Shown here in pieces: positions 14,309-56,539 of a stretch of DNA of 64,000 bases (position 1 is the first letter of the stretch; each line of letters begins with the position of its first letter). The stretch is from assembly GCA_015665455.1 (NCBI GenBank), contig JADFAD010000006.1, positions 868,001 through 932,000 of the forward strand, in the 5' to 3' direction. Below the pieces are notes generated by a model. The model ran no database searches, was not told where the DNA came from, and saw only the letters and a list, made by a program, of their open reading frames with translations. This DNA comes from Oceanospirillaceae bacterium (GTDB lineage: Bacteria > Pseudomonadota > Gammaproteobacteria > Pseudomonadales > Litoribrevibacteraceae). Made by a program: the position numbers and the translations under genes.

Positions 14309-14385
14309 TGGTACACCCGGCGCGATTCGAACGCGCGACCTTCGCCTCCGGAGGGCGACGCTCTATCCAGCTGAGCTACGGGTGC
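14309..14385 (-). tRNA. tRNA-Arg (anticodon CCG)
   Basis: 77 nt cloverleaf including an encoded 3' CCA. Acceptor strand GCACCCG pairs with CGGGTGT. The D-arm is GCTCAGCTGGATAGAGC, the anticodon stem TCGCC/GGCGA with loop CTCCGGA (CCG anticodon), and the T-arm GCGCGTTCGAATCGCGC. The first acceptor pair is G1-U72 rather than G-C. It decodes CGG. Confidence 0.95.
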
Positions 14386-40169: not shown

Positions 40170-40181
40170 TATCACGGTCTC

Positions 40182-40706: not shown

Positions 40707-41047
40707 TAACTGCCTCTGTACGTAGAAATGCCGTAAGCGGAAACAAGAAGCGGCACGTGATAATGCTCTTCCGGTTTTTCAATACGAAAATCAAAAGTGA
40801 CAACAGGGTAAAAACACGTCTTACCCTGTTTCTCAAAATAGGGATCGGTTGCAAACTCAATTCGATAAATCCCTTTTTCCCGCTGCTGTCCATCCAACCA
40901 ATCCAAGATACGGCCATCACTGTTGGTCACGCCTGATGCAATTTCTACCAAAGAACCATCCACTCGTTTGTAGAGTGTTACCGCCATACCAGCCGCTGGG
41001 CCGCCTAAGTTTGTATCCAGTACATGAGTCGTAATAGGGCTTGCCAT
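40706..41047 (-). CDS. uraH: 5-Hydroxyisourate hydrolase (transthyretin-like)
   Basis: 113 aa. N-terminal ITTHVLDTNLGGPAAGM, the HYHVPLL segment and C-terminal YRGS are the three hallmark motifs of 5-hydroxyisourate hydrolase and separate it from true transthyretin. It hydrolyses 5-hydroxyisourate to OHCU. No periplasmic signal peptide. Nine bases after uraD and overlapping allA by one base. Confidence 0.97.
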   Translation of the reverse strand: MASPITTHVLDTNLGGPAAGMAVTLYKRVDGSLVEIASGVTNSDGRILDWLDGQQREKGIYRIEFATDPYFEKQGKTCFYPVVTFDFRIEKPEEHYHVPLLVSAYGISTYRGS

Positions 41048-41056
41048 GATGATTCC

Positions 41057-41611
41057 TTATCGCTCAGAGATTTTTGTTTCAGGGTTGGTGTCATTGGGCA
41101 GAAGCTTTCCAATACGGATCGCAGTAATTTTTGCCTGCTCGCCGGCTGCAATTTTCAACTCTTGCTCACGTGTATTCGGTAAACGAGATTGAAGAATGTC
41201 CAACATCTCAACAGCACTCTTCCCCGTTGCGCAGACAATAAAAATAAACCCGTTTTGCTCTTCGTACTGAGTGTTGCCATCAGCCAATGCTTGGATCGTT
41301 TCCTCTGACGCAACATTCACAGAAGATTGCTCGCCTGAAGCCAATTGCTTTGTGTGAGCAAATTTCTTACGAAGACTCGTAACATCCCCAATCTTTGGAT
41401 GACCTTCAAAAGCCTCCAAAAAATCAGACGCACCCAGTGCATTCCACACGTCAAGCGCGACTTCCTGACATTGTTGAATGGAGACAAATGGCCGTCTGGC
41501 CGCCATACCTTCAATCCAACGAGAAGACGTGCAGCAATTCTCAAATGCGAACGCAGCATCCTCTCCTGACAGGTTGTTCAGCTGACTTAACGTATAAGTT
41601 AGGTCACTCAT
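41057..41611 (-). CDS. uraD: OHCU decarboxylase
   Basis: 184 aa, helical. Family motifs: FENCCTSSRWIEGMAARRPF (catalytic His is replaced in position by context I cannot align by eye), FLEAFEGHPKIGDVTSLR with the conserved HPKIGD, QLASGEQSSV, and FIFIVCATGKSA. Converts OHCU stereospecifically to S-allantoin. The start overlaps the alc stop by one base. Confidence 0.94.
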   Translation of the reverse strand: MSDLTYTLSQLNNLSGEDAAFAFENCCTSSRWIEGMAARRPFVSIQQCQEVALDVWNALGASDFLEAFEGHPKIGDVTSLRKKFAHTKQLASGEQSSVNVASEETIQALADGNTQYEEQNGFIFIVCATGKSAVEMLDILQSRLPNTREQELKIAAGEQAKITAIRIGKLLPNDTNPETKISER

Positions 41612-42732
41612 TACTTCCCTTCCCCATTGACGGACTCAGGAAATCCCCATAAACGAAGGCGACTGATACCTCCGTCTGGATACATTTTGATGCGAACATG
41701 CGTGAATGCGTTTTTATCACTCACCAATTCCTCTTTAAATGTATGCTCACGGTCTTCATACAACTTAGTGCGACCAATGATTGGCTGCCAGTTAATGTCC
41801 GAATTACTTTCTGTTGATTGTGTTAATGCATCAGCATGAGCATCCACTTTTAACAGCTCCGTATCCGCCGCTTGTTCATCGGTTAATACTGCGCCTTCCA
41901 AAGCAAATGCGTCTGGGTAATTGCCTTTAAAGTGACAAGTGTCGATCAAAATCTTATTAATGGAGCCTTTCGCTGCCAACTGAAGCACCAACCAATCGTT
42001 ATCACGATCAACCTGCGCATCGTCCACGGAACGGCGTCGCTTAGTTTCCCAACCGTCGCCCATGTTAGCGCCACGTTCTGGCATGATGAGATTTTCCATG
42101 TGACTGAAAAACATATCAGAACACACTAACGGGCGAGCACCGTTCTTGATGTAAGCCAAATCCACAGGCTCACCTTCTAAGAACCAATTCCAATCAGGAA
42201 CAATGTCACCGTAAACGCGTAAGCGAGCAACGCCACCGTCTGGGTACATATGAAAACGTACGTGTGTCCAGACACCTTCAACTTCTGCATCTATAAGGTT
42301 TTCACTGCCAGGCTCAACGTCTGTCACTGAAACAATTTCAGTCCATTGCGTTGCATCATCTGGCTCACCTTTAATACGACACGCTTCCAGTGAAACCTTC
42401 TGAGGTGCATTTCCTAAGAAGTGATTCGTATCGGCATTAATGCCCACAATCTTGCCTTGGGCACCTAACTTAATGATGCACCAATCATGGTCCAAACCAT
42501 CAGAGGAAGAACCGTCTGGGCGAAAACGACGTCGGCGAGACTCCCAGCCGTCCATCCACTTACCTCGGTCTGTGTACTTATCATCGATAAACACACCACG
42601 ACCAGGCTTTAACAGGTTTTCCATTTCAGCAAAGAAATCATCACTGCATGAAAGTGTTTGTCCGCCTAATCGACGACTTGCTAAATCGGTATAGCGCTGA
42701 GAAAAACGGTTCATCTCTACTTGTGTTGCCAT
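41611..42732 (-). CDS. alc: Allantoicase
   Basis: 373 aa from the ATG at 42732 (a TTG three codons upstream is possible). Two tandem jelly-roll domains, each with the motif CSD-x-FF-x-x-MENL followed by GWE(S/T)(R/K)RRR and THVR-x-x-MYPDGG-x-(A/S)RLR(V/L)(Y/W)G. Splits allantoate into ureidoglycolate and urea. First gene of the six-gene operon; a hairpin separates it from xdhC. Confidence 0.96.
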   Translation of the reverse strand: MATQVEMNRFSQRYTDLASRRLGGQTLSCSDDFFAEMENLLKPGRGVFIDDKYTDRGKWMDGWESRRRRFRPDGSSSDGLDHDWCIIKLGAQGKIVGINADTNHFLGNAPQKVSLEACRIKGEPDDATQWTEIVSVTDVEPGSENLIDAEVEGVWTHVRFHMYPDGGVARLRVYGDIVPDWNWFLEGEPVDLAYIKNGARPLVCSDMFFSHMENLIMPERGANMGDGWETKRRRSVDDAQVDRDNDWLVLQLAAKGSINKILIDTCHFKGNYPDAFALEGAVLTDEQAADTELLKVDAHADALTQSTESNSDINWQPIIGRTKLYEDREHTFKEELVSDKNAFTHVRIKMYPDGGISRLRLWGFPESVNGEGK

Positions 42733-42865
42733 GTATTCCAATACCTTTCACTGTCTATCACCGCGTCTTCTGAGATATCAAATACAGAAATTACGACTGA
42801 TATGATCTATTAATGCTCAAGAGACGGAGAACACTCCAATCCCGTTATTATTTAATACGTTTAAT

Positions 42866-42879
42866 GGCCCGAACGGGCC
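42866..42879 (-). terminator. GC-rich hairpin between xdhC and alc
   Basis: GGCCCG (42866-42871) / CGGGCC (42874-42879). On the minus strand it lies 36 bases after the xdhC stop and is followed by ATTAAACG, without a T run. It could be a partial terminator letting some xdh transcription read into alc. Confidence 0.45.
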
Positions 42880-42915
42880 TAATTGCTTTAGCCAATCACT
42901 TCATGCTCTAAGCAC

Positions 42916-43791
42916 TTAAGTACTGGTCACTTTTAGGATGGAACCTTGACCTTCGGTATTCACCTCACCGCCAAGCTCTTGTTTGATGTCTTTCCAAGCC
43001 AAGCCACGGCGTACTGCCGTTTCCTTACCTTGGTTTTCAATTGCAATCAGTTCACCCGCAATGGAAACCGCAACTTCCATAGGTAACTTGCCTGGCACTT
43101 CACTCAACCCCACGGGGCAAGTAATTCGATCAATGTCGGTTTGATCTACCCCTCGATGCTGCATGCGTTTTACAAAACGCTCCGCTTTGGTAAGCGATCC
43201 GATCAGACCAACATGACGTAAATTGCCGTGTTTAATAGCAGACAGGCATAACTCATAATCCAACTGGTGGTTATGAGTTAGAATTAAAGCGTCCGCGCCA
43301 GTAGGTAAACGCTCTAGTTCATAGATTGGTTGATCACTGACTACTTTCGTCACGTTCGCAGGAATTAATTCTGGGAACTCCGCTTCTCTCTGATCAACCC
43401 AAGTCACCTTACACGGCAACCCAGAGAGAATATTGATTAATGCTTTCGCCACATGGCCTGCACCGAACACACCGATATGAAAGTCACAACCCGCAAAGGT
43501 CTCCATCAACACCGTTGCACTGCCACCGCAGCATTGCCCCAACGACGCGCCTAACGGAAAATGCTGAATTTCTTGAACGGATTTATTTTCAGAAACCATC
43601 TCCCGCGCCTTGTTCGTAACCACAAATTCCAAGTGGCCACCACCAATGGTGTCAAAGGTGCTTTCACCCGTAATCACCATTTTGCTGCCCTGATCCCGAG
43701 GCGTAGACCCAGTACAACCAAGCACCGTCACCAACGCATAAGCTTCGCCTGTATGTTGACAACACTGAACCGCATCAAACCATCGACTCAT
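42916..43791 (-). CDS. xdhC: Xanthine dehydrogenase accessory protein XdhC
   Basis: 291 aa. XdhC/CoxI family: N-terminal ALVTVLGCTGSTPRDQGSKMVI with a conserved Cys and GGGHLEF, then a C-terminal Rossmann domain with GVFGAGHVAKAL, and HNHQLDYEL, GLIGSLTKA, CPVGL. Binds molybdenum cofactor and promotes its sulfuration and insertion into XdhB. Follows xdhB by 8 bases. Confidence 0.95.
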   Translation of the reverse strand: MSRWFDAVQCCQHTGEAYALVTVLGCTGSTPRDQGSKMVITGESTFDTIGGGHLEFVVTNKAREMVSENKSVQEIQHFPLGASLGQCCGGSATVLMETFAGCDFHIGVFGAGHVAKALINILSGLPCKVTWVDQREAEFPELIPANVTKVVSDQPIYELERLPTGADALILTHNHQLDYELCLSAIKHGNLRHVGLIGSLTKAERFVKRMQHRGVDQTDIDRITCPVGLSEVPGKLPMEVAVSIAGELIAIENQGKETAVRRGLAWKDIKQELGGEVNTEGQGSILKVTST

Positions 43792-43799
43792 ACAACCCC

Positions 43800-46244
43800 C
43801 TATGCATTCCCAGTATTAAAAGGCGCTGCATCCTGAGCAAGCTGGGCTTCTTTAGCGCGCTCCGTTGCCAGTACCGAATTCAACACGCATTCAGGTGTTG
43901 CTGGCGTATTCATTGGCGGACTAAAACGATAATCAGCAATGCTAGAAACGGCATCACGCAACGCAGACCAAACAGAAATACCTAACATAAACGGTGGTTC
44001 ACCCACGGCTTTCGAACGGTAAACCGTTTCTTCGCCATTCGGGCGGTCTTCAAGCAATTTCACACGAAAATCGATGGGTGCATCGCCCACTGCCGGAATT
44101 TTATAAGTTGCCGGACCGTTAGAAAGCAGTTTACCTTGGTTATTCCACACCAACTCTTCCGTGGTTAACCAACCCATACCTTGGACGAAAGCGCCTTCAA
44201 TTTGGCCGATATCAATGGCAGGATTTAAAGAACGACCTACATCATGAAGAATGTCGGCACGCAGTACTTTGTATTCACCCGTTAAGGTATCCACAAGCAC
44301 TTCTGAAACGGCGGCACCGTTTGCGTAATAATAGAAAGGACGACCCTTTCCAGATTCGCGATCATAATGAATCTTAGGGGTCTTATAAAAGCCGGTCGAC
44401 GATAACGGTACTCGACCCATATACGCTTGCTGCACGAAATCAGCAAACGGTACCCATTGTTCACCTGCGTCCGTATTAATCACAAGATGATTACTTTCGA
44501 AGCGCACTTGCGACTCCACCACCTGATAGTGCTCACAAGCAAACTTAAACAACCCGTCTTTAATGCGTAGACAGGCATCACGCGCAGCCATACCATTTAA
44601 ATCAGTGCCAGAAGATGCGGCTGTCGGCGATGTATTAGGAACTTTATCCGTACGAGTGGAAGATACTTGGATCGTATCCAGATCCACTTGAAATTCCTCC
44701 GCAACCACCTGAGCAACTTTCAAGAACAAGCCTTGGCCCATTTCCGTACCACCATGGCTTAAATGAATACTGCCATCGGTGTACACATGAACCAGCGCTC
44801 CGGCCTGATTCAAAAACTGAACGGTAAATGAGATTCCAAACTTCACCGGAGTCAGCGCCAAGCCTTTCTTCATAAAGGGGCTTTGCGCATTAAACGCTTT
44901 GATTTCTTCACGGCGCTTCCAATAATCGGAAGTGTTTTCTAACTCATCGATCAATTCAGGCAATAAATTATGTTCAACCGTTTGCCCATAATGCGTTTGA
45001 TTACGTGCATCAATCTGACCGTCTTCCGTCTTAATATGGTCGTATTTAATGCCATATAGGTTGCGCTTTCGGATGGTTAAAGGATCTTCCCCCATATGAC
45101 GCGCAATATCATCCATCATTAACTCAGCGACCATCATCCCCTGAGGGCCACCAAATCCACGATAAGCCGTTGCTGAAACGGTGTGCGTCTTACAACGATG
45201 ACCTGTCACCGTAGCGTTATTCAGGTAATACGCGTTATCTGAATGGAACATGGCTCGATCAACAATCGCATCGGATAAATCAGGCGAGTTACCACACTTA
45301 CCCGCCACCATGATTTCAGCCCCCTGAATAATGCCTTGCTCATCCACACCCACATCATACGTATTGTAGAAATCATGTCGCTTACCCGTCATCTCCATAT
45401 CGTCTTGGCGAGACATCCGGTATTTAACAGGCTTGCCGGTTTTGTTGGCTAAAATCGCAGCTATACATGCGAGAGGCGCAGCCTGAGTTTCTTTACCACC
45501 AAAACCGCCCCCCATACGACGCACATCCACTTGTACTTTATTGATACTGACACCAAGCACTTCAGCAACCAGCTTTTGTACTTCAGTTGGGTGCTGACTC
45601 GACGTAAAAACTTCCATACCGCCGTCTTCAGTAGGCACAACCGAACTGACCTGACCTTCCAAATAGAAGTGTTCTTGGCCTTTTACGTACTGCTCACCCT
45701 GAATTCGATGTGGTGCATTCTTAAGTGCTTTTGAAGAATCACCGCGTTTGTGTTGATGCGTTGGACGAACAAAGAAATTATCTTCCAGTGCTTTTTCAAC
45801 CGTCAGCACAGGCTCGAGTACGTCGTATTCAATTTCAGCCAGTGCTGCGGCTTTCTTGGCCTGCTCAAATGACTGGGCCGCCACAGCAAAAATAGGCTGC
45901 CCAATGAATTCACACTCGCCATCCACCAAAACTGGATCGCCAGGAAACACAGGGCCAATATCCGTATGCCCCGGTACATCTTTTACCGTAATAACCGCTT
46001 CAACACCCGGTGCAGAACGAACTGCCGATAAATTCATTAACTTAATCTTTGCATGTGCGTGTTTACTGCCACCCACAACAACATGTAATTGGTTCGGATA
46101 TTCAGGCATATCATCGACATACACTGCTTTACCCGTTACATGTTTCTCAGCACTCTCATGCTTCATGCTCTGGCCCGTCTTGCCTTTAGATGGACGAGCC
46201 CTCATTGGTAACTCAGTAGTAGTCGTCTCAATTAACTTACGCAT
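43800..46244 (-). CDS. xdhB: Xanthine dehydrogenase, molybdopterin-binding subunit
   Basis: 814 aa. Molybdopterin-binding signatures are RRMGGGFGGKETQAA, TAYRGFGGPQGM, HGGTEMGQGLFLKV, the loop TSPTAASSGTDLNG, and the catalytic Glu in SKAVGEPPFMLG. It oxidises hypoxanthine/xanthine to urate at the Mo centre. Overlaps xdhA by 8 bases. Confidence 0.97.
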   Translation of the reverse strand: MRKLIETTTTELPMRARPSKGKTGQSMKHESAEKHVTGKAVYVDDMPEYPNQLHVVVGGSKHAHAKIKLMNLSAVRSAPGVEAVITVKDVPGHTDIGPVFPGDPVLVDGECEFIGQPIFAVAAQSFEQAKKAAALAEIEYDVLEPVLTVEKALEDNFFVRPTHQHKRGDSSKALKNAPHRIQGEQYVKGQEHFYLEGQVSSVVPTEDGGMEVFTSSQHPTEVQKLVAEVLGVSINKVQVDVRRMGGGFGGKETQAAPLACIAAILANKTGKPVKYRMSRQDDMEMTGKRHDFYNTYDVGVDEQGIIQGAEIMVAGKCGNSPDLSDAIVDRAMFHSDNAYYLNNATVTGHRCKTHTVSATAYRGFGGPQGMMVAELMMDDIARHMGEDPLTIRKRNLYGIKYDHIKTEDGQIDARNQTHYGQTVEHNLLPELIDELENTSDYWKRREEIKAFNAQSPFMKKGLALTPVKFGISFTVQFLNQAGALVHVYTDGSIHLSHGGTEMGQGLFLKVAQVVAEEFQVDLDTIQVSSTRTDKVPNTSPTAASSGTDLNGMAARDACLRIKDGLFKFACEHYQVVESQVRFESNHLVINTDAGEQWVPFADFVQQAYMGRVPLSSTGFYKTPKIHYDRESGKGRPFYYYANGAAVSEVLVDTLTGEYKVLRADILHDVGRSLNPAIDIGQIEGAFVQGMGWLTTEELVWNNQGKLLSNGPATYKIPAVGDAPIDFRVKLLEDRPNGEETVYRSKAVGEPPFMLGISVWSALRDAVSSIADYRFSPPMNTPATPECVLNSVLATERAKEAQLAQDAAPFNTGNA

Positions 46245-47772
46245 GATAAGCCTCGCCTTGTTTATCAGAGCCGCTCATGGCTGTTAACACAGAAGTTTGT
46301 TCCAGTTGTGCAGTATGCACTTGTTCAATACGAGAAATTTTCTCAGGGTTCATCAGCTCTAATGCACACTTTCGCATCAAACCTTTTGCTACCTGAATCC
46401 GATACTCAGCGGTTGCACGCACATCTGTTAAAGGTGTGAAATCGTTCGAAAGCTCATTCGCTGCATTAATAAACGTCATCTCGGACAAGGGTTTCCCAAT
46501 CAGAGCTTGTTCCACATTACTCGCAGCTTTGGGAATACCTGCCATACCACCAAAACCGGATCGAACATCTTTAACCATGCCGTCATCAAGAGTGACGACA
46601 AACGCGGCAAGCACAGCAGAAATATCATCTTCAATGCGCTTAGAGATTTTGAACACTTTCAAACATTGGTTTTCTTGAAGTCTAGGAATTCGAATGGCGC
46701 GTATGTACTCGCCTGATTGAAGCGCGGTCTGTTTATAATCCAAGAAAAATTGATCTATCGGTAACCAGCGATGTGTCTGCTTACTTACTAACTCTAATTC
46801 CGCGCCCAAGGCAATCAATACGGGAGGGGTATCACCAATGGGCGAAGCATTCCCAACATTGCCGCCTAATGTACCGTTATTACGAACCTGTCGGGAACCC
46901 AAACGATCCAACAAGGCAGCAAACTCAGAATAGTGCTGTCTTAGCGTATCCTCAATCTCAGCATACGTTGCTGCGCCACCAAAAGTAACACTTTCGTCTG
47001 ACACATCGATGGCTCTTAATGAATCAATACCACCAATGGAAACCAGTTTGTTAATTGATTTATGAAGCTGTGTGACTTCTAACGCCAAGTCCGTTGCGCC
47101 TGCAACCATACGAGCGTCAGGGTGCTCGGCCAATAAATCTTTCAGTTGCTGTTCATCCTCAGCCACCCACGACTGTTCTTTCTTCTTACGTAAATTGCGC
47201 GTTCTACGCTCCGCTTCCGTACCTGCGTTATGAACAACACCTGTTGTCTGCTCTTCAGGCTGCCAAATACCGACATTCGCAACATTTGGATACGCATTCA
47301 TATTTCGTGCAGCATCAATGATCGGGCGGTAGCCTGTGCATCGGCATAAATTTCCGGACAAGGCGTCTAAGATATCGTGCTCTGAAGGTTGCTCCCCATC
47401 CACTTTTTGATGAAGTGCCGCCAAAGACATAATAATTCCCGGCGTACAAAAACCACACTGCGACCCATGATGATCAACCATTGCTTGCTGTACAGGGTGT
47501 AATGCATCTCCTTCAGCCAACGCATCGACAGTAATAACGCTCTTTCCATGCAATTGCGCTAGAAAGGTTATACAGCCATTAATTGCTTTATAAGCCCACT
47601 TCCCTGCTTGCTTTTCGCCCAAAAGAACACTGCAAGCGCCACAGTCGCCTGATCCACAGCCTTCTTTTGTGCCGGTTAAGGTTTGGCGCGTTCTAAGATA
47701 ACGCAGCACCGTCATATCAGGTACGATGTCAGCTTCTTCAATCCACCGACCATTTAGACAAAATTTAATCAC
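46237..47772 (-). CDS. xdhA: Xanthine dehydrogenase small subunit (2Fe-2S and FAD)
   Basis: 511 aa from a GTG start (AAGG about 8 bases upstream). The N-terminal ferredoxin domain has GCGSGDCGACSV, then the second cluster with CGFCTPG and CRCTGYRPI. The FAD domain (from about 215) has MVAGATDL and NNGTLGGNVGNASPIGD. It passes electrons from the Mo centre to NAD+. First gene of the xdhABC operon; a RutR-like palindrome and a weak -24/-12 motif lie about 140 bases upstream. Confidence 0.97.
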   Translation of the reverse strand: MIKFCLNGRWIEEADIVPDMTVLRYLRTRQTLTGTKEGCGSGDCGACSVLLGEKQAGKWAYKAINGCITFLAQLHGKSVITVDALAEGDALHPVQQAMVDHHGSQCGFCTPGIIMSLAALHQKVDGEQPSEHDILDALSGNLCRCTGYRPIIDAARNMNAYPNVANVGIWQPEEQTTGVVHNAGTEAERRTRNLRKKKEQSWVAEDEQQLKDLLAEHPDARMVAGATDLALEVTQLHKSINKLVSIGGIDSLRAIDVSDESVTFGGAATYAEIEDTLRQHYSEFAALLDRLGSRQVRNNGTLGGNVGNASPIGDTPPVLIALGAELELVSKQTHRWLPIDQFFLDYKQTALQSGEYIRAIRIPRLQENQCLKVFKISKRIEDDISAVLAAFVVTLDDGMVKDVRSGFGGMAGIPKAASNVEQALIGKPLSEMTFINAANELSNDFTPLTDVRATAEYRIQVAKGLMRKCALELMNPEKISRIEQVHTAQLEQTSVLTAMSGSDKQGEAYHA

Positions 47773-47913
47773 AAGCTTACCTTCATCGAGCCAAAACTTT
47801 CCGATAAACGAATAGGAAAGATAATTATTATTTTATAACTGTATTAATAATGAACTATTTTCAGAGAATAAAGTGACCGATAATCTGAATAGAACATAAA
47901 CACAAGCAATTAA

Positions 47914-47929
47914 CTGACCAAATAGTCAG
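47914..47929. promoter_or_regulatory. RutR-type operator-like palindrome upstream of xdhA
   Basis: CTGACCA-AA-TAGTCAG, a near-perfect inverted repeat close to the RutR-box TTGACCA-NN-TGGTCAA. On the minus strand it overlaps TGGTCAGTTAATTGCTT, which keeps GG-N10-GC spacing and may be a weak sigma-54 promoter for xdhA. Confidence 0.5.
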
Positions 47930-48268
47930 CTTTTATAAAATACAGACTAATTTATTAAAAGAAAAGTAAGAAATACAAATACTAGACAAAATGCACTTAT
48001 AATTCTTGACTAAAGTATCCAATTACAATTACCGATTAATTACCAATGAATTTCTTATCGCACCAAAATTAACCAATTGGTTACTTTTTTGCACCAATCA
48101 ATCTCAAAAATACAACACCAATCAAAACAGACTATTTTTCATACAGCAAATCTTACCTACCTCTCTATTCTTTATTACATTTACATGACCAGCCAACCCG
48201 CATAGTTACTGACCCTATGGACAATATTTAAATAAAAGTCTATTTTTTGCACGCGATTTTAAGAAATA

Positions 48269-48284
48269 TGGCAGAAAACTTGCC
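48269..48284 (+). promoter_or_regulatory. Sigma-54 (-24/-12) promoter match upstream of the nucleoside ABC operon
   Basis: TGGCAG-AAAAC-TTGC keeps the invariant GG and GC with 10 bases between them and matches TGGCAC-N5-TTGCW except at two positions. Transcription would begin near 48295, about 25 bases before the ATPase start. Confidence 0.55.
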
Positions 48285-48293
48285 TCATAATTT

Positions 48294-48309
48294 CTGTTCA
48301 CTTGGTCAA
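48294..48309. promoter_or_regulatory. RutR-type operator-like site at the start of the ABC operon
   Basis: CTGTTCA-CT-TGGTCAA: the right half matches the RutR-box exactly, the left half at 4 of 7 positions. It lies over the transcription start expected from the -24/-12 motif and 10 bases before the start codon, a natural repression position. Confidence 0.45.
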
Positions 48310-48319
48310 GTAATAAAAT

Positions 48320-49882
48320 ATGAAACGCATTGAGTTAAAAGAAATTACAAAACGATACCCTGGTTGTGTTGCAAATCAATCGGTTGAATTGTCCGTAAGT
48401 GCAGGAGAAATTCACGCGCTTCTGGGTGAAAATGGCGCAGGTAAAAGCACGCTAATGAAGATTATCTATGGTGTTGTAAAGCCTGATGAAGGTGAAATGC
48501 TGTGGGAAAATCAATCGATCGAAGTCAAAGGCCCTGCTCATGCCCGAGAGCTTGGCATAGGTATGGTCTTTCAGCACTTCTCATTATTTGAAACCTTGAC
48601 CGTTGCTGAAAACATCGCTTTAAGTTTACCCAAGGCCGAAGCAAAATCCTTAGACGCACTAAAAAAGCGCATATCTGACGTATCAAAACGGTATGGCATG
48701 CAGCTCGACCCTAACCGTTACGTTCACACCTTATCAATTGGGGAACAACAGCGAGTTGAAATCGTTCGCTGCCTTCTACAAGACGTTAAGTTACTTATAC
48801 TCGATGAACCCACATCGGTGCTTACGCCGCAAGAAGTAGAAACCTTATTTAAAACGCTTCATCAACTGTCCGATGAAGGCTGCAGCATTTTATTTATTTC
48901 ACACAAATTGGATGAAGTAAGAGCACTGTGTGATAACGCCACCATTTTACGCGGCGGTAAAGTCAGCGGTCATTGCATTCCAAAAGACACAACCACCGAC
49001 GAAATTGCTCGATTAATGGTGGGTGATGACACCCCTCTTTCTGAAGACTATAAAAAAGCGACCGGCGGTGAACCCTACCTCACCATCACGAACCTAAGCT
49101 ACAAATCAGAAGACCCGTTCGCGACGCCTTTGAAAGACATCTCCTTTGATGTGAAAGCAGGAGAGATTCTAGGCATCGCTGGCGTTGCAGGCAACGGGCA
49201 AGAAGAACTACTGAACCTCATCAGTGGCGAAGAGACGACAACCGCTTCGTGCGTTAAATTTGCTAAGAAAGCCGTCGCCAATTTAACCCCTGAAAAGCGA
49301 AGAATACTCGGTCTAGGATTTGTTCCCGAAGAACGCTTAGGTCGTGGCGCAGTGCCAGACATGTCACTGGAAGAAAATGCCTTATTAACGGGTTATCAAG
49401 GTGAACTAACCAACAAAGGCTGGATTAACACAACCAAAGTAAAAGCGTTTGCGAAACAAATCATCGAACAATTCAATGTTAAAACGGCTGGTTCATTAGC
49501 CCAAGCAAAGAGTTTGTCTGGTGGTAACCTACAGAAATACATTATTGGTCGTGAAATCCTTCAAAACCCAAAGCTCTTGGTTTGCTCGCATCCGACCTGG
49601 GGTGTAGACATTGGCGCCGCAATTTTAATCCGCCACGCCTTAATTGAGTTACGAGACCAAGGCGCAGCCATTTTGGTGGTCTCTGAAGACATTGATGAAC
49701 TTTACGCCATCAGTGATCGAGTTTGCGCCATCTGCGACGGTGAACTTTCACCTGTGGCGCCCACCAATGAAGTCACCATCAATCAACTCGGTAAATGGAT
49801 GGCGGGCGACTTCAGTCCATCTGACACCCACTCTGACACGGCATCCGCAGGCCCTCTGGCAAATGTAGGAGGCCTATCATGA
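48320..49882 (+). CDS. Nucleoside/purine ABC importer, ATP-binding protein (two ATPase domains)
   Basis: 520 aa with two fused ABC domains of the ribose/BMP-importer class. Domain 1: Walker A GENGAGKST, Q-loop FQHFSLF, signature LSIGEQQR, Walker B LLILDEP. Domain 2 is degenerate at Walker A (GVAGNGQEE) but has LSGGNLQK. Family relatives are NupA/YufO type ATPases that import nucleosides with BMP-family binding proteins. It begins a four-gene operon and overlaps the first permease by 4 bases. Context with xdh suggests purine nucleosides. Confidence 0.92.
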   Translation: MKRIELKEITKRYPGCVANQSVELSVSAGEIHALLGENGAGKSTLMKIIYGVVKPDEGEMLWENQSIEVKGPAHARELGIGMVFQHFSLFETLTVAENIALSLPKAEAKSLDALKKRISDVSKRYGMQLDPNRYVHTLSIGEQQRVEIVRCLLQDVKLLILDEPTSVLTPQEVETLFKTLHQLSDEGCSILFISHKLDEVRALCDNATILRGGKVSGHCIPKDTTTDEIARLMVGDDTPLSEDYKKATGGEPYLTITNLSYKSEDPFATPLKDISFDVKAGEILGIAGVAGNGQEELLNLISGEETTTASCVKFAKKAVANLTPEKRRILGLGFVPEERLGRGAVPDMSLEENALLTGYQGELTNKGWINTTKVKAFAKQIIEQFNVKTAGSLAQAKSLSGGNLQKYIIGREILQNPKLLVCSHPTWGVDIGAAILIRHALIELRDQGAAILVVSEDIDELYAISDRVCAICDGELSPVAPTNEVTINQLGKWMAGDFSPSDTHSDTASAGPLANVGGLS

Positions 49883-50997
49883 TGTTCAATCGAATAGCGT
49901 TAGAAAAACGATCTTCCGATTCAAAGACGATGTCGTACCTATCTCCGGTACTCGCCATATTATTAACGTTAATCAGCGGCGGCTTGTTGTTTGCGAGCTT
50001 AGGGCAAGATCCTTTTCACGCCTTACACACGTTTTTTGTTGCCCCTCTTTCGGACCTATATGGCTGGACAGAGCTCGGCACCAAGGTAGCGCCATTACTA
50101 CTATGCGCTATGGGCCTTACGTTATGTTTCCGAGCTAAGATTTGGAACATTGGCGCCGAAGGTCAATTCATTCTCGGCGGTCTCGGTGGCGGTTACATTG
50201 CCTTAGAGCTACTGGATGTTGAAGGGTTGTGGGTGTTGCCGTGTGTGCTTATTTTTGGCGCTCTGTGCGGCATGTTTTGGGCCGCACTTGCTGCACTTCT
50301 AAAAACTCGATTCGGCGCGAATGAAATTCTTACTACCATCATGCTCAACTACATTGCATTGAACTGGCTATTGTATGGTGTTCATGGTCCCCTGAAAGAC
50401 CCGGAAGGATTTAACTTCCCTGAATCAGCGATGCTCTCCGAGTTTACGACCCTACCCGTCATATTCGATGACTACCGATTGAATATCAGTATTTATTTCG
50501 CGTTATTTGCCGCAGCCGTGATCTGGGCGCTCATGTCGAAAACCTTAATTGGTTTCCAGATCTCTGTCATGGGAGAGGACAAAGCCGCTGCCCGTTTTGC
50601 AGGCTTTAAAGAAACGCGCCTTACTTGGTTTGTCCTACTTACGTGCGGTGCCTTGGCGGGCTTAGCCGGCGTATCGGAAGTCACTGGCCCGGTAGGTCAA
50701 TTAACACCTTACATATCATCAGGCTACGGTTACACCGCCATCATTATTGTGTTTCTTGGACGTATGCACCCCGTAGGGATTGTCCTTGCCAGCATGCTCT
50801 TGGCCCTAACGTACATGGGGGGAGAAATGGCTCAAATGGATCTATCCCTGCCCAAATCTCTCACTGGATTATTCCAAGGCATGTTGCTGTTTTATTTATT
50901 GGCCTGCGACCTACTGATCAGTTATCGCATTGTTCGCAAGCCGGCATCCAAAAATCACTCGCAGAGTGCGACTCAGAACATCAACGCGCAAGCGTAG
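49879..50997 (+). CDS. Nucleoside/purine ABC importer permease 1
   Basis: 372 aa, about ten hydrophobic helices; contains the BPD_transp_2 family stretch FRAKIWNIGAEGQFILGGLGGGY and GFQISVMGEDKAAARFAGF, corresponding to NupB/YufP-like permeases. Start overlaps the ATPase stop; a second ATG follows directly at 49882. Pairs with permease 2 to form the membrane channel. Confidence 0.93.
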   Translation: MMFNRIALEKRSSDSKTMSYLSPVLAILLTLISGGLLFASLGQDPFHALHTFFVAPLSDLYGWTELGTKVAPLLLCAMGLTLCFRAKIWNIGAEGQFILGGLGGGYIALELLDVEGLWVLPCVLIFGALCGMFWAALAALLKTRFGANEILTTIMLNYIALNWLLYGVHGPLKDPEGFNFPESAMLSEFTTLPVIFDDYRLNISIYFALFAAAVIWALMSKTLIGFQISVMGEDKAAARFAGFKETRLTWFVLLTCGALAGLAGVSEVTGPVGQLTPYISSGYGYTAIIIVFLGRMHPVGIVLASMLLALTYMGGEMAQMDLSLPKSLTGLFQGMLLFYLLACDLLISYRIVRKPASKNHSQSATQNINAQA

Positions 50998-51010
50998 TGA
51001 AGGCAGTATT

Positions 51011-51937
51011 ATGGACATTGAATTAATAACGAACATTCTTTTTGCAACCATTCGCACAGGTACCCCTCTTATTTTGATTGCCCTAGGGGAAATGGTCTGT
51101 GAGAAATCAGGCGTGCTTAACTTAGGTCAAGAAGGCATGGTGCTGATGGGTGCGGTACTCGGTTTTATCGCTTCCGTCGTCACCGGTCACGCAGGCTTTG
51201 GCATCCTTGCAGCCATTTTTGCAGGTATGCTGATGTCTGTCTTATTTGGTTTTTTAGCCATTTCTTTAGTATCCAATCAAGTGGCAACGGGCTTAGCGTT
51301 AACCATTTTTGGTATTGGTTTAAGCGCTTTCTTAGGTGCAGGTTATGTGGGCATGGCCATTGACGGCATCACCGCATGGGAAATTCCTTACCTGAGCGAC
51401 ATTCCCATCATCGGTAAAATACTCTTTTCTCATGACCCACTGGTGTACCTATCTTGGGGCATATTTGGGCTTTTGTTTTGGTGCTTTAAAAGCACGCGCC
51501 TTGGCTTAACCATCCGCGCAGTGGGTGAAAACCCTGAAGCAGCAAACGCCATTGGTATTTCAGTCATGAAAGTTCGCTACGGCGCCGTCTTATTCGGCGG
51601 AGCAATGGCAGGGCTTGCTGGCGGCTACCTTTCCATAGCTTACACCCCGATGTGGAGTGAAGGCATGTCCGCAGGTCGTGGCTGGATCGCATTGGCTTTA
51701 GTTGTATTCGCAAGCTGGAAAGCGGAACGGATCCTCTTAGGTGCTTATCTGTTTGGCGCTGCAAGCATTATGCACCTTGTCCTTCAAGGCCTGGGCTTCG
51801 AAGCATCACCAAACTTACTGGCCATGCTGCCGTACGCAGCCACCATTATCGTGTTGGTTGTTCTAGCAAGCGACGCCGTTAAAACCAAATTAAGTACACC
51901 GTTAGCCCTCGGTCAGCCTTATCGCCCGCAGGTTTAA
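51011..51937 (+). CDS. Nucleoside/purine ABC importer permease 2
   Basis: 308 aa from the ATG at 51011 (AAGG at good spacing; the frame extends upstream into permease 1 without a ribosome site). NupC/YufQ-like: GEMVCEKSGVLNLGQEGMVLMGAVLGF, GLTIRAVGENPEAANAIGISV and GAMAGLAGGYLS. It forms the importer with permease 1 and the ATPase. 13 bases after permease 1. Confidence 0.93.
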   Translation: MDIELITNILFATIRTGTPLILIALGEMVCEKSGVLNLGQEGMVLMGAVLGFIASVVTGHAGFGILAAIFAGMLMSVLFGFLAISLVSNQVATGLALTIFGIGLSAFLGAGYVGMAIDGITAWEIPYLSDIPIIGKILFSHDPLVYLSWGIFGLLFWCFKSTRLGLTIRAVGENPEAANAIGISVMKVRYGAVLFGGAMAGLAGGYLSIAYTPMWSEGMSAGRGWIALALVVFASWKAERILLGAYLFGAASIMHLVLQGLGFEASPNLLAMLPYAATIIVLVVLASDAVKTKLSTPLALGQPYRPQV

Positions 51938-52030
51938 CACGACTTAGAAAGGCTTAAAAGCCAACACAATAATAAAGTAACCGTAAAAGAAAACAGAACA
52001 TCAACTTAACCAGCACAGTAAGGAGAACAC

Positions 52031-53140
52031 ATGATACGTCTGGCTGAAAAACGTCTGTCCAAAAAAGGCAGCACACTGACTAAATTACTCACGGCGGCAA
52101 CTTTGGCCGTTAGCTGCAACGTAGCATCTGCAGCAGATCCATTAAAAGTAGGCTTTGTCTACGTGGGCCCAACTGGTGATGCAGGCTGGACATACGCGCA
52201 TGACGAAGGTCGTAAGTACATGGTTGACCAGCTAGGCGACCAAGTTGAAACCACGTTCGTTGAAAGTGTTGCCGAAGGCGCTGATTCTGAACGAGTTATC
52301 CGCCAAATGGCAGCTAAAGGCCACGACCTGATCTTCACAACATCTTTCGGCTACATGAACCCGACTCTAAAAGTCGCTAAGCGTTTCCCGAAAGTAAAAT
52401 TCGAACACGCGACTGGCTATAAGCGTGGAAAAAACACAGGCACTTACTTTGCTCGTGCTTATCAAGGCCGTTACTTAACTGGTTTGATTGCAGGCAAGAT
52501 GACCGAGTCTAACGTCATTGGTTACGTTGCTTCATTCCCAATCCCTGAAGTGATTCGTGGCATCAATGCCTTCACGAAAGGCGCTCAAGAAGTAAACCCG
52601 GATGTAAAAGTAAAAGTGGTCTGGGCAAGCACTTGGTACGACCCAGCGAAAGAGCGTGAAGCTGCAGAAACACTGATTCTTCAAGGTGCAGATATCTTAA
52701 CTCAGCACACAGATTCTGCCGCCGTAATTCAAGCAGCCCAATCAAAAGGGAAATTCGCAATCGGATACCACTCAGATATGTCGCCATACGGTGCTAAAGC
52801 GCACTTAACGGCCACCATTCATAACTGGGGTGCGCTTTACACACAAAAAGCTAAATCGGTCCTGGATGGCACTTGGAAATCAGAAGATCTATGGCCTGGT
52901 ATCGCAGAAGGCGTAACGGACTTAGCGCCGCTAAACGATGCAATTCCAGCAGACGTGAAAGCATTGGTTATGGCTAAAAAGCAAGAAATCAAAGAAGGCA
53001 AAGCACGCGTATTTGACGGCCCAGTTCTTAACCAAGCGGGTGAGGAAGTGGTTCCTGCAGGCCAAAGCATGAGCGATAACGATCTAAAAGGCTTTAACTG
53101 GTATGTGAATGGCGTTGAAGGTCAGCTACCAAAGTCTTAA
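52031..53140 (+). CDS. BMP-family (PnrA-like) periplasmic nucleoside-binding protein
   Basis: 369 aa with a signal peptide ending SCNVASA and no lipobox. BMP-family pattern: VGFVYVGPTGDAGWTYAHDEGRKYM, IFTTSFGYMNPTLKVAKRFP, GYVASFPIPEVIRGINAF and GADILTQHTDSAAVIQAA. It should bind purine nucleosides or related bases and deliver them to the permeases. Its AAGGAG ribosome site 6 bases upstream is strong, as usual for a binding protein made in excess. Confidence 0.93.
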   Translation: MIRLAEKRLSKKGSTLTKLLTAATLAVSCNVASAADPLKVGFVYVGPTGDAGWTYAHDEGRKYMVDQLGDQVETTFVESVAEGADSERVIRQMAAKGHDLIFTTSFGYMNPTLKVAKRFPKVKFEHATGYKRGKNTGTYFARAYQGRYLTGLIAGKMTESNVIGYVASFPIPEVIRGINAFTKGAQEVNPDVKVKVVWASTWYDPAKEREAAETLILQGADILTQHTDSAAVIQAAQSKGKFAIGYHSDMSPYGAKAHLTATIHNWGALYTQKAKSVLDGTWKSEDLWPGIAEGVTDLAPLNDAIPADVKALVMAKKQEIKEGKARVFDGPVLNQAGEEVVPAGQSMSDNDLKGFNWYVNGVEGQLPKS

Positions 53141-53162
53141 TAAAAAATACAACAAGAATTCA

Positions 53163-53187
53163 GTGTGAAAGCCTCACGCTTTCACAC
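53163..53187 (+). terminator. Stable hairpin between binding-protein and Tsx genes
   Basis: GTGTGAAAGC (53163-53172) / GCTTTCACAC (53178-53187), loop CTCAC, no T run. It is more likely an mRNA-stabilising or processing hairpin that raises binding-protein expression than a full terminator. Confidence 0.5.
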
Positions 53188-53286
53188 ACTTTCAAGTCGA
53201 AAGCACACAGAAAGCGCTGATCTAAGCGATTAATGTGGTTTAGACGCTTGAACGCATAACGAGAAATAGCAACAAGGAAATACATA

Positions 53287-54048
53287 ATGAAAAACCTGAA
53301 AACTTTACCTCTAGCTGCCGCCATCGCTGCTGGTTCTTTAATGTCTGCAACGGCTCAAGCTGAAATGTTCTGGAGCGATAATAGCCTGACATTACTTTAT
53401 GGCGAAAACTATGAGAACCCATTCGGCGATGACCGAGACCTGACAACTATGACGTTAGAGCACGTTTCTGGTCACAACTGGGGTGATGTATTCATGTTTG
53501 TTGATCGCCACGACGGTGGTGATGACAACCTGACTGAAATCTACGGCGAACTTGCTCCGCGTTTCAGCTTAAGTAACTTGTCCGGTTCTAAGCTAGAGCT
53601 TGGCCCAATCAAAGACGTACTTATTGCGACTACTTACGAATTCAACGATTGGCAGAACGACTTTGCTAGCGGTTCTCAAGATAACTTCCTATACGGTATC
53701 GGTCTTGATTGGAACATCCCTGGTTTGAAGTTTTTCCAAACCAACTTTTACCAAGTAAGCAATGACAACACAGAAGACGACCAGCAGCTAACGGTTGTAT
53801 ACGGCGCACCATTCTCTGTGGGTTCATTAGATGTAATGATCGACGGTTACATTGACTGGTCTACCGGTGAAGAAGATCACAAATCTGATTTCCATTTCAA
53901 CCCACAAGTACGTGCGGATGTTGGTAAGTACATGGGCATCACAAAATCGAAATTAGAAGTAGGTTTTGAATACTCATACTGGCACAACAAGTTCGGCAGC
54001 AATGCTGACGAAAGTGTATTCAGTGCATTAGCTAAATTCCATCTATAA
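53287..54048 (+). CDS. Tsx-like outer-membrane nucleoside channel
   Basis: 253 aa. Signal peptide MKNLKTLPLAAAIAAGSLMSATAQA. The mature protein starts with FWSDNSLTLLYGENYENPFGDD, then TMTLEHVSGHNWGDVFMFVDRHDG, and ends in SALAKFHL, matching the nucleoside-specific channel-forming (Tsx) family, a 12-stranded monomer. It would pass nucleosides across the outer membrane to the BMP-type binding protein encoded just upstream. Confidence 0.9.
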   Translation: MKNLKTLPLAAAIAAGSLMSATAQAEMFWSDNSLTLLYGENYENPFGDDRDLTTMTLEHVSGHNWGDVFMFVDRHDGGDDNLTEIYGELAPRFSLSNLSGSKLELGPIKDVLIATTYEFNDWQNDFASGSQDNFLYGIGLDWNIPGLKFFQTNFYQVSNDNTEDDQQLTVVYGAPFSVGSLDVMIDGYIDWSTGEEDHKSDFHFNPQVRADVGKYMGITKSKLEVGFEYSYWHNKFGSNADESVFSALAKFHL

Positions 54049-54080
54049 TTGATCTAACGATCAGCTATTGATGCCGATAG

Positions 54081-54125
54081 AGCCATGATTTGGGAATTTT
54101 AGAACCTTTTAATCATGGCTTTTTC
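54081..54125 (+). terminator. Rho-independent terminator after the Tsx-like gene
   Basis: AGCCATGATT (54081-54090) / AATCATGGCT (54111-54120) with a 20-base loop, followed by TTTT. Ends the importer/Tsx unit. Confidence 0.8.
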
Positions 54126-54225
54126 GTTACGAAGAACATTCTGTTACAATTGCGCCGATTTATTCTGCACCTCGTTCAGAATACCTATATTCTAAATGGA
54201 AGTGAGCACCACTAAGAGGTTTGTT

Positions 54226-54873
54226 TTGAGTACTGAGCCAAGAAAATATAAACCAGGAAAGATCCGCGAACATAACAGCCAAAAAATCTTAGAAGCGGCT
54301 GAATGTGAGTTTGTAAAACACGGATACAAAGGCACCAGTATGCAGTCCATCGCTGATGCAGCTGAGTTACCCAAGGCCAATGTTCATTACTACTTCAAGA
54401 GTAAAGCTAAGCTCTACAATGCCGTACTTGAAGACATTCTTCAGCGCTGGAACGAAGTGCTTGCAGAAATGAGCGAAGAAGGTGATCCAGCTGAAACACT
54501 GGAAAACTACATTCGCGCGAAAGTAGATCTTTCAATTCGCTTCCCTCAAGCATCCAAGATTTTCGCCACTGAAATCATCCAAGGTGCACCGAATCTAAAA
54601 GAACATATCCGTACAGACTTACGTCACTGGGTACGTTCTAAAACCAAGATTATTGAAACATGGATTGAACAAGGCAAAATGACCGCCGTTGATCCTGAAC
54701 ATCTTATTTTCATGATCTGGTCCACCACTCAGCATTACGCCGACTTTGAAACTCAAGTATTAACCATTACTAATAAGCTTGAATACGAACCAGAAGACGT
54801 GAAAAAGATCAGTGATTTCTTATGTCACATGATTCTGACCGGTTGTGGTCTAAAGCCAAGCGTAAGCCTATAA
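54226..54873 (+). CDS. RutR-type TetR family regulator
   Basis: 215 aa from a TTG at 54226, preceded by AAGAGG at 6 bases; an in-frame ATG at 54196 has no ribosome site. N-terminal TetR HTH: ILEAAECEFVKHGYKGTSMQSIADAAELPKANVHYYFKSK. The C-terminal domain is of the RutR/YcdC subgroup (FPQASKIFATEIIQGAPNLKEHI, MIWSTTQHYADFE). RutR in E. coli senses uracil/thymine and controls pyrimidine and purine catabolism through TTGACCA-NN-TGGTCAA boxes. Here the neighbours are purine genes and similar boxes precede three of them, so a purine or pyrimidine base ligand is inferred. Confidence 0.88.
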   Translation: MSTEPRKYKPGKIREHNSQKILEAAECEFVKHGYKGTSMQSIADAAELPKANVHYYFKSKAKLYNAVLEDILQRWNEVLAEMSEEGDPAETLENYIRAKVDLSIRFPQASKIFATEIIQGAPNLKEHIRTDLRHWVRSKTKIIETWIEQGKMTAVDPEHLIFMIWSTTQHYADFETQVLTITNKLEYEPEDVKKISDFLCHMILTGCGLKPSVSL

Positions 54874-54930
54874 AATGAATTGTATGTCGATTCAACTTGG
54901 TGAATGTTAAGCCGAGTAGAAAATGCAGAC

Positions 54931-54959
54931 AAAAAAATGCCGGATCATATGAGCCGGCA
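54931..54959 (-). terminator. Terminator-like hairpin oriented against the flanking genes
   Basis: TGCCGG (54938-54943) / CCGGCA (54954-54959). The run of seven T follows the stem on the minus strand only. No minus-strand gene lies nearby upstream of it, although both flanking genes are on the plus strand. Confidence 0.6.
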
Positions 54960-55059
54960 AAGGTTGGATTCGAGAAATTAGCCGAAGAAACTAACTAACT
55001 TGTATAAATAGACCCGGCTATAACGATTAAGTTCAGATAAATTTCAAAAAAATTAAAAA

Positions 55060-55118
55060 GGCAGATTAACACGCAAGTCACTGCCATGTACCGAGTAGGT
55101 ACTTGGCCGTGTTACGCC
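55060..55118 (+). ncRNA. Candidate structured RNA (possible xanthine/urate riboswitch) upstream of 8-oxoguanine deaminase
   Basis: A composite hairpin. The outer pairs GGC (55060-55062)/GCC (55116-55118) and TAACACG (55067-55073)/CGTGTTA (55108-55114) enclose a nine-base bulge CAAGTCACT (55074-55082) on one side only. The inner stem is GCCA-T-GTACC (55083-55092)/GGTAC-T-TGGC (55098-55107) with loop GAGTA. A hairpin with asymmetric internal loops upstream of purine-oxidation genes recalls the NMT1-type xanthine/urate riboswitch, but I cannot confirm its consensus from memory. Confidence 0.4.
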
Positions 55119-55142
55119 TGATTTTCAGTTCAGTCTCGACGT

Positions 55143-55176
55143 CCAGTGCCGACTCACTCAACCGTGAGGTAACTGG
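55143..55176 (+). promoter_or_regulatory. SD-sequestering hairpin in front of the 8-oxoguanine deaminase start codon
   Basis: CCAGT (55143-55147)/ACTGG (55172-55176) and CTCAC (55153-55157)/GTGAG (55164-55168) form a two-part stem. The ribosome site GAGG (55166-55169) lies inside the paired right arm, and the ATG follows at 55178. Folding would block translation. Confidence 0.55.
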
Positions 55177-55177
55177 C

Positions 55178-56539
55178 ATGAACAAAACGACTAATACAAC
55201 CACTTGGATTAAACACCCCTTAGCGGTGTTCACAGCAAACGAACACGATGCATCCAATGGCATCGTCATCAAAAATAACAAAATCATCGAACTGGTTGGC
55301 CACCAGCAACAACCCAATACCCCCATCGATGAAGTATTTGACGCATCTCGTCATGTGGTACTGCCAGGCTTGATTAATACGCATCATCATCTCTACCAAA
55401 CCTTAACACGTGCTTTTCCACCCGCACTCAACAAGCGATTATTTCCGTGGTTGCAAACCCTTTATCCTGTATGGGCCAAACTGCAGCCAAACATGCTTCA
55501 ATCGGCAACGGAATTAGGACTAGCAGAACTTATGCTTTCCGGCTGTACAACGGTCGCAGATCATCACTATTTATTCCCAGAAGCACTTACGGAAGCAATC
55601 GACATTCAAGTCCAAGCAGCCAATAGCATTGGAAATCGGGTTTTGTTAACCCGAGGATCAATGAGCCTTGGTCAAGATCAAGGTGGCCTCCCGCCTCAGA
55701 GCACCGTTCAAACCGATGAGATCATTCTGAAAGACTGCCAACGCGTCATTCAGAAATACCACCAAGCAGATGAAGGCGCCATGGTTCAAATCGCTTTAGC
55801 GCCGTGTTCCCCTTTCTCTGTGACCACTGAATTGATGAAACAGACAGCCTCTCTTGCTCGCCAGCATGACTTAAGACTCCACACCCATCTGGCCGAAACC
55901 GAAGATGAAAACAGCTTCTGCTTGAAAACCTTTGGGTTAAGGCCTCTGGATTACCTAGAATCGGTCGATTGGTTAAGCAACGACGTTTGGCTAGCCCACG
56001 GAATTCACTTCAATGACGAAGAAATAAAGCGCCTCGGTAAGGCCGAAACAGGCGTTTGCCACTGCCCATCCTCTAACATGGTATTGGCGTCGGGCATTTG
56101 TCGCACGAAAGAACTTCAAGCTGCAGGCGCCCACGTGGGTTTGGGTGTGGATGGATCAGCCTCAAACGATGGGTCGAACATGATTCAAGAAGTAAGACAG
56201 GCATTATTAATTAACCGATTACGCTACCAAGCCGATGAAGTTTCACACCTTGATGCGCTGTATTGGGCAACCAAAGGATCGGCAAACGTGATTGGCCGTA
56301 CCGACATTGGTGAATTAGACGTTGGAAAGCAAGCAGACATTGCCCTCTATAATCTCGATGAACCTAGATTCTCAGGTGCTCACGATCCACTGGCAGCATT
56401 GATTCTGTGTGGCGCACATTCAGCAGATCACGTAATGGTGGCTGGGCAGTGGACGGTATCAAATGGGCAACTGCTTAATCAAAGCCTACCAAACATCCAA
56501 TCTCGCCATCATCAACTCGCCATGCAGCTGATTAATTAA
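55178..56539 (+). CDS. 8-Oxoguanine deaminase-like amidohydrolase
   Basis: 453 aa from the ATG at 55178 (GAGG 8 bases upstream). Subtype III amidohydrolase: PGLINTHHHLYQTLTRAFPPALNKRLFPWLQTLYPVW, HTHLAETEDE, WLAHGIHF, CHCPSSNMVLASG and GLGVDGSASNDGSNM. These match bacterial 8-oxoguanine deaminases (converting 8-oxoguanine to urate) and related aminohydrolases such as the AtzB/TrzN relatives. Urate formed would enter the PuuD pathway encoded in this window. The 5' leader has unusual RNA structure, suggesting regulated translation. Confidence 0.85.
   Translation: MNKTTNTTTWIKHPLAVFTANEHDASNGIVIKNNKIIELVGHQQQPNTPIDEVFDASRHVVLPGLINTHHHLYQTLTRAFPPALNKRLFPWLQTLYPVWAKLQPNMLQSATELGLAELMLSGCTTVADHHYLFPEALTEAIDIQVQAANSIGNRVLLTRGSMSLGQDQGGLPPQSTVQTDEIILKDCQRVIQKYHQADEGAMVQIALAPCSPFSVTTELMKQTASLARQHDLRLHTHLAETEDENSFCLKTFGLRPLDYLESVDWLSNDVWLAHGIHFNDEEIKRLGKAETGVCHCPSSNMVLASGICRTKELQAAGAHVGLGVDGSASNDGSNMIQEVRQALLINRLRYQADEVSHLDALYWATKGSANVIGRTDIGELDVGKQADIALYNLDEPRFSGAHDPLAALILCGAHSADHVMVAGQWTVSNGQLLNQSLPNIQSRHHQLAMQLIN

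Follow-up and report, generated by a model that had tools for sequence, protein, structure and literature searches.

A conserved leader hairpin with a competing fold upstream of 8-oxoguanine deaminase genes, a candidate riboswitch of mostly marine bacteria

In the 64,000-nt stretch of an Oceanospirillaceae bacterium contig analyzed here (the window), the leader of a gene assigned by its family model to 8-oxoguanine deaminase carries, at 55060-55114, an RNA element that appears from sequence comparison to be new and switch-like, that has no credible Rfam 15 match, and that we propose as a candidate riboswitch. We think it fairly likely that with this element the deaminase mRNA carries, at its 5´ end or close to it, a bistable RNA that regulates in cis, and the element is probably a riboswitch for a ligand of the purine pathway. 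Judging from our searches, the motif is so far known before one kind of purine-degrading gene, in carriers that are mostly marine bacteria. An RNA sensor for an enzyme that clears 8-oxoguanine-like purines would, if true, give a handle on how bacteria sense oxidized purines, and a deeply conserved leader element exists that Rfam 15 does not match.

The center of the element is P1, a 26-nt hairpin (55060-55085; GGCAG-ATTAACACGCAAGTCA-CTGCC) of 5 bp with a 16-nt loop. In a DNA search of 56 relatives, conservation was limited to part of the leader, and the sequence of P1 is nearly identical in members of many families. We compared 35 leaders: 31 distinct sequences from the scans of the order and of the 84,980-species collection described below, after four duplicates were dropped, and four added by family searches (L166, L170, L177, and L222). 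Left out were L225, with the same leader as L081; L172, which has no gene; and L179-L181, which lie within coding sequence. The latter three matches had hinted at a compensating pair within the loop, which was dropped for that reason. Across the 35 leaders, the gene starts 85-268 nt after the start of the core. The loop tip is GCAA in 28, GCGA in three, GAAA in two, and GTAA and ACAC in one each, and the only loop change outside the tip (T8>C) occurs in L222, together with C3>T in the arm.

The outer pairs of P1 appear to covary. Pair 1-26 is GC in 24 leaders, AT in six, GT in four, and AC in one, and pair 2-25 is GC in 28, AT in five, and GT in two, which gives standard pairing in 69 of 70 cells; pair 3-24 is CG in 34 leaders and TG in one. 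The P1 covariation score of 0.176 (27 distinct rows) exceeded all 500 shuffles and fell when the partner was shifted by 1-3 columns. Traced on a tree of the proteins of 30 motif genes, pairs 1-26 and 2-25 changed six times each.

A small hairpin with an invariant loop, dedicated to one gene and with four of its five tip states fitting a GNRA loop, might instead be a site where an RNA-binding protein, possibly the deaminase itself, docks to repress or protect the mRNA, with the competing fold tuning access. This explanation seems unlikely, given that a plain docking site needs no built-in downstream competition of the kind described below, and that no candidate protein partner was identified. 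An invariant, unpaired-looking loop could also be the target of a trans-acting small RNA (sRNA). We regard this as very improbable: the organism's own genome holds no other place within 3 mismatches of the 20-mer described below on either strand (shorter complementarity was not tested), and for the loop to be invariant in so many families, the sRNA would have to be just as invariant.

The motif is tied closely to its gene. When 390 genomes of the order were searched with up to 3 mismatches to the 20-mer GATTAACACGCAAGTCACTG, matches with 0-1 mismatch were found in 12, and all 12 lay immediately upstream of an 8-oxoguanine deaminase gene. A further 82 matches had 2-3 mismatches, compared with ~67 for a reversed control pattern (both counted by hand), and the deaminase signature was absent from the 29 fetched loci tested among these 82. 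The deaminase family model NF006055 was found in 68 of 381 genomes of the order, including all 12 motif carriers; the motif is thus present in 12 of the 68 deaminase-bearing genomes. A scan of the 84,980-species collection with an exact pattern (19 fixed positions, the loop tip partly free) returned 23 contigs, from Endozoicomonas, Parendozoicomonas, Psychromonas, Colwellia, Pseudocolwellia, Catenovulum, Pseudoalteromonas, Oleispira, Bermanella, Thalassolituus, Bacterioplanes, Reinekea, Marinobacter, and unclassified relatives. A deaminase reading frame follows the motif in 22 of the 23, although in several the retrieved sequence stops before the frame is complete; the exception is L081. These contigs came from a fixed pattern, and only the mismatch-tolerant searches bear on variation.

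A search within one family matched 18 of 44 genomes; three of these were coding-sequence matches, and 14 of the other 15 precede the gene, L172 being the exception. The family that contains Endozoicomonas had some match in 15 of 37 genomes and true members in six, one of them (L225) with a broken gene. In the Colwellia family, exact matches were limited to five of 295 genomes, all five already known, and some match was seen in 55 (for inexact matches, the fetched loci were checked). A covariance model run on 369 class-wide genomes scored 52.8 bits in the organism's own genome; seven matches in six other genomes (21-24 bits, E 0.002-0.009) were judged to be chance on inspection of their sequences. 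No motif, even a weak one, was detected upstream of 59 other above-cut-off deaminase loci and one below the cut-off (filters off, best E 0.21), and a plasmid collection likewise gave no motif match. From these searches, presence of the motif appears to be all-or-none.

L081 (Parendozoicomonas callyspongiae) and L225 retain an intact motif in front of a deaminase of which a broken remnant is left. In L172 (genome G771, minus strand, ~1380-1525), P1 with two changes (TAGATC) and P2, the hairpin described below, are followed by no deaminase; the next long frame, ~540 nt further on, looks like a purine/uracil permease. The two changes, T8>C and C3>T, are shared with L222, and the L172 leader is probably a relic left after gene loss.

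Conservation of the core is also deep. We placed 30 motif genes and 40 of the 59 motif-less loci on a 70-row protein tree, omitting five motif leaders for which the gene was broken or cut off. On this quick tree, in which long branches among the outgroup rows were flagged, the motif label changes twice, compared with 22.7 times with shuffled labels. The motif therefore appears to mark a single clade of deaminase genes in Gammaproteobacteria, having been gained once and lost once. The loss is in G244 (gene L234, upstream region L106), which has the only deaminase within the clade that lacks the motif and constitutes a natural loss. Within the clade, protein identity is as low as 0.59, and median identity is 0.39 at third codon positions and 0.31 at four-fold sites, such that drift alone cannot explain 20 intact letters; the core is unchanged despite the protein divergence. 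Identity is 0.31-0.48 in the five columns preceding the core; on the other side, the next two columns are still mostly AT (0.90, 0.86), and column identity then drops to 0.28-0.59.

P1 is not the structure originally noticed in this leader. The original prediction had drawn a composite stem, followed by a second stem over the ribosome binding site, and had read the two as aptamer and expression platform. Folding of 55055-55185 (131 nt; minimum energy -40.8 kcal/mol, z -2.37, equalled by five of 200 shuffles) suggests a leader of moderately unusual stability, and the 68-nt 5´ part folded alone has a z of -3.59 (one of 200 shuffles). The minimum-energy fold does contain the stems as drawn, with an outer 7 bp (TAACACG with CGTGTTA), a one-sided 9-nt bulge, CAAGTCACT, at 55074-55082, and an inner stem of 4+5 bp, and its second stem sequesters the bases GAG of the ribosome site; this site, GAGG, ends 8 nt upstream of the ATG. 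The covarying hairpin GGCAG:CTGCC of the 26-nt core and the composite stem are mutually exclusive, and the related genome G001 (L002) does not retain the outer 7-bp stem. The composite stem is not the conserved element; by fold prediction, it represents the competing state in the window. The idea of a switch-like architecture survives in altered form: the leader RNA is structured and has a highly conserved core, covariation at the outer pairs of P1, and a competing fold.

A mutually exclusive alternative fold is supported by both prediction and statistics. The 3´ arm of P1 doubles as the start of the P2 hairpin, and over 35 leaders the hairpin right behind P1 is stronger than in shuffled sequences (Fisher, 4e-5; this and the other combined p-values are optimistic, since the leaders are related). 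Among 16 representative leaders with a P2 that starts at the first Y of the CTGYY arm, a pyrimidine follows P2 in 15, and P2 can therefore extend to the G of CTG as well. Among downstream 5-mers, enrichment is strongest for GTGAC, the complement of GTCAC in the core; it occurs in 11 of 29 leaders (2.3 expected; uncorrected p 7.5e-6). It is found in eight of the 11 leaders without an arm-taking P2 and in three of the 18 that have one (p 0.005); this split was noticed before it was tested.

We also compared the stability of P1 with that of all other folds, with native or shuffled downstream sequence, in 29 leaders. Native downstream sequence disfavors P1 by a mean of 3.2, 2.9, and 1.6 kcal/mol at 65, 80, and 100 nt, respectively, versus -0.1, 0.0, and 0.1 kcal/mol for shuffled sequence (Fisher, 4.9e-9, 1.8e-7, and 4e-4), and P1 is natively disfavored by >0.5 kcal/mol in 19, 21, and 19 of the 29 leaders. 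As native sequence disfavors P1 compared with shuffled sequence, the alternative state looks selected for. Strands complementary to the loop are present in the window (CGTGTTA) and in L066 (CGTGTTAAT), and the loop taken together with the CAG and CTG arms has downstream complementarity at 1e-4 over 31 leaders. A conserved pseudoknot between loop and downstream strand was considered and rejected, the complementarity of the loop not being significant over these leaders; the strand was kept as a competitor only.

Several points, in addition to the relatedness of the leaders, weigh against a bistable element. The hairpin behind P1, as defined for the shuffle comparison, is missing in seven of the 35 leaders and reaches p<0.05 in only nine. 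Competition with P1 is weaker at 100 nt than at the shorter lengths, and eight of the 29 leaders do not disfavor P1 by >0.5 kcal/mol at 80 nt. The 16-nt loop alone has no significant complementarity to the downstream leader (31 leaders; Fisher, 0.17), and, over 29 leaders, the ribosome site does not respond consistently when P1 is forced. For P1 itself, of five covariation measures, two stay within the range of the shuffles (doubly changed pairs, reached by 310 of 500, and pair types, reached by 396 of 500), and an independent-pairs sign test on the protein tree has just two and three pairs, with which significance is unreachable.

On balance we favor a bistable RNA and tentatively suggest, at somewhat less than an even chance, that it represents a new riboswitch class, specific to a single gene, that senses 8-oxoguanine or urate and switches when P1 exchanges strands with one of two unrelated competitors, either a P2 that takes its arm or an anti-core strand. 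In the more general reading as a bistable RNA, P1, near the 5´ end of the mRNA, would form first during transcription. A ligand, most likely a purine-pathway metabolite (8-oxoguanine, urate, xanthine, or guanine), would hold the loop and stabilize P1; without ligand, the P2/anti-core fold would displace P1 and dominate. The change in fold could then alter the translation or the survival of the deaminase mRNA.

The output step may differ from the one first envisaged, in which masking of the ribosome site served as the platform. When P1 is forced, the ribosome site opens in nine and closes in eight of 29 leaders (p 0.98), which does not bear out masking as a consistent platform; in the present leader, the site is predicted to be masked in both states (open ~0.25). 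For the wider start region, openness rises in 12 and falls in seven of the 29 (p 0.14). Terminator-like hairpins are seen in two of 29 leaders, and intrinsic termination is an unlikely output. An upstream open reading frame with a ribosome site is present in one of the 29. Output via translation, Rho, or RNA decay is possible.

In 24 of 29 leaders, the best-matching -10-like hexamer starts 8-25 nt ahead of P1 (no shuffle control), and a stricter promoter scan of the window found no full promoter. A sigma-54 promoter, TTGGCAG...GC, was rejected by eye, the spacing being 11 rather than 10 and the GG not being kept. The closeness of the site to the -10-like hexamer, its 5-bp inverted arms, and the presence of RutR-like genes near the motif in 12 of 29 loci would fit a DNA operator, in which a regulator, for example the RutR-like TetR protein encoded just upstream, would bind 26 bp of DNA close to the transcription start. 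We consider an operator improbable. The organism's own genome has a single site within 3 mismatches of the 20-mer and hence, weaker sites aside, no regulon; the arms are 16 bp apart with a non-palindromic, invariant center; G-U type cells are tolerated (seven of 105 arm cells over the three outer pairs), though A-C occurs once; and the competition acts at the RNA level.

Table 1. Positions of the leader element and of nearby features in the window
Feature	Position	Strand	Basis
RutR-like TetR protein gene	54196-54873		models match below cut-offs
Best -10-like hexamer TAAATT, 22 nt before P1	55038-55043	+	weak evidence
P1 5´ arm GGCAG (family RRCAG)	55060-55064	+	leader comparison, covariation
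Near-invariant 16-nt loop ATTAACACGCAAGTCA	55065-55080	+	mismatch-tolerant searches, alignment
Variable loop tip GCAA	55073-55076	+	family: GCAA, GCGA, GAAA, GTAA, ACAC
P1 3´ arm CTGCC (family CTGYY), final bases common to P2	55081-55085	+	covariation, P2 comparison
P2 hairpin GCCA-T-GTACC-GAGTA-GGTAC-T-TGGC, exclusive with full P1	55083-55107	+	folds, P2 comparison
Anti-core strand CGTGTTA, partner of TAACACG (55067-55073) when the competing fold forms	55108-55114	+	fold, loop-complementarity test
Downstream hairpin, covers part of GAGG (55166-55169)	55143-55176	+	minimum-energy fold, ribosome-site test
8-oxoguanine deaminase gene	55178-56539	+	NF006055, 694 bits vs cut-off 532

A purine-catabolism island at 37651-54873 of the window ends in a Tsx-like channel and the RutR-like regulator, directly before the deaminase. 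We take other proteins of this cluster to be PuuD, guanine deaminase, allantoicase, and XdhABC; for the Tsx-like, BMP-type, and RutR-like genes, family-model scores lie below the cut-offs. Around the 29 motif loci, permease-like genes were seen at seven and BMP-like genes at six, in addition to the RutR-like regulators, and we recognized what are presumably allantoate amidohydrolase at five and a pathway aminotransferase at four. A purine-pathway ligand is a natural guess from this context, and no more. An inverted repeat, TGCCGG...CCGGCA, at 54930-54960 is followed by seven T on the minus strand and looks terminator-like in that direction, with no minus-strand gene near; the terminator scan did not list it.

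The element was compared with known RNA families. At the gathering score, Rfam 15 matched only a tRNA (14312-14385) in the window. Under permissive settings, a wider stretch gave only minus-strand matches to frnS (17.6 bits) and ncS025 (14.7 bits), for which the gathering scores are 60 and 46; the inverted repeat at 54930-54960 lies under these weak sRNA-model matches. A run on 55040-55190 returned nothing at E<=10, and of two other leaders tested permissively, L066 gave three weak, unrelated matches and L089 none. For a suspected resemblance to 16S rRNA, a search of the organism's own genome yielded only the core and one 13-mer elsewhere and no rRNA. On contig 6 of the same genome (L274, 1501-1513, minus strand), TAACACGCAAGTC recurs without any change, with a hairpin GCCAGTAAC...GTTACTGGC behind it; this second copy sits between exopolysaccharide-type genes without P1 arms and is likely due to chance. 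Among the literature matches listed, titles and abstract openings contained no RNA motif for the 8-oxoguanine deaminase gene.

NMT1, the xanthine riboswitch family suggested in the original prediction, resembles the element in gene context. NMT1 RNAs, as described in PMC7373994, are short leader RNAs with few or no intrinsic terminators that lie before purine-catabolism genes, including deaminase-like amidohydrolases; the 8-oxoguanine deaminase belongs to the gene types listed there for purine oxidation and transport. For this reason gene association cannot separate the motif from NMT1; structure and sequence do. The NMT1 topology is P1-J1-P2a-J2-P2b (PMC7373994, PMC8266621), a two-stem junction with conserved J1/J2 nucleotides, whereas the covarying element here is a simple hairpin with a 16-nt loop, has other conserved letters, and is restricted to one gene. 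The NMT1 model (RF03054, gathering score 36 bits) had no match in 55040-55190, in the organism's own genome, or in leaders L066 and L089, while the relative G048 was positive at 43.7 bits, and the window has no core stretch in common with the published crystal construct (PMC8266621). A bulged stem in the competing fold of the window speaks for NMT1; by score and sequence the family is excluded, and we give membership next to no credence. In G048, of the same order, the true NMT1 match (L272) precedes a gene that by eye resembles an isopenicillin-N-synthase-type dioxygenase.

Guanine-type purine riboswitches have 8-oxoguanine variants, and preQ1-I type riboswitches have a sensor domain of small size, similar to P1. 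Like the element described here, the purine riboswitches and their xanthine and 2´-deoxyguanosine variants are associated with purine-related genes (PMC9295807); they differ in that the element has no Rfam match and no three-way junction in its conserved part. Differences from preQ1-I are, again, the lack of an Rfam match and the lack of a conserved pseudoknot strand by the complementarity test. If the element is a riboswitch of the kind proposed, its sensor domain, a 26-nt hairpin with a 16-nt invariant loop, would be among the smallest, and so tiny an invariant core makes for easy tests of ligand and structure.
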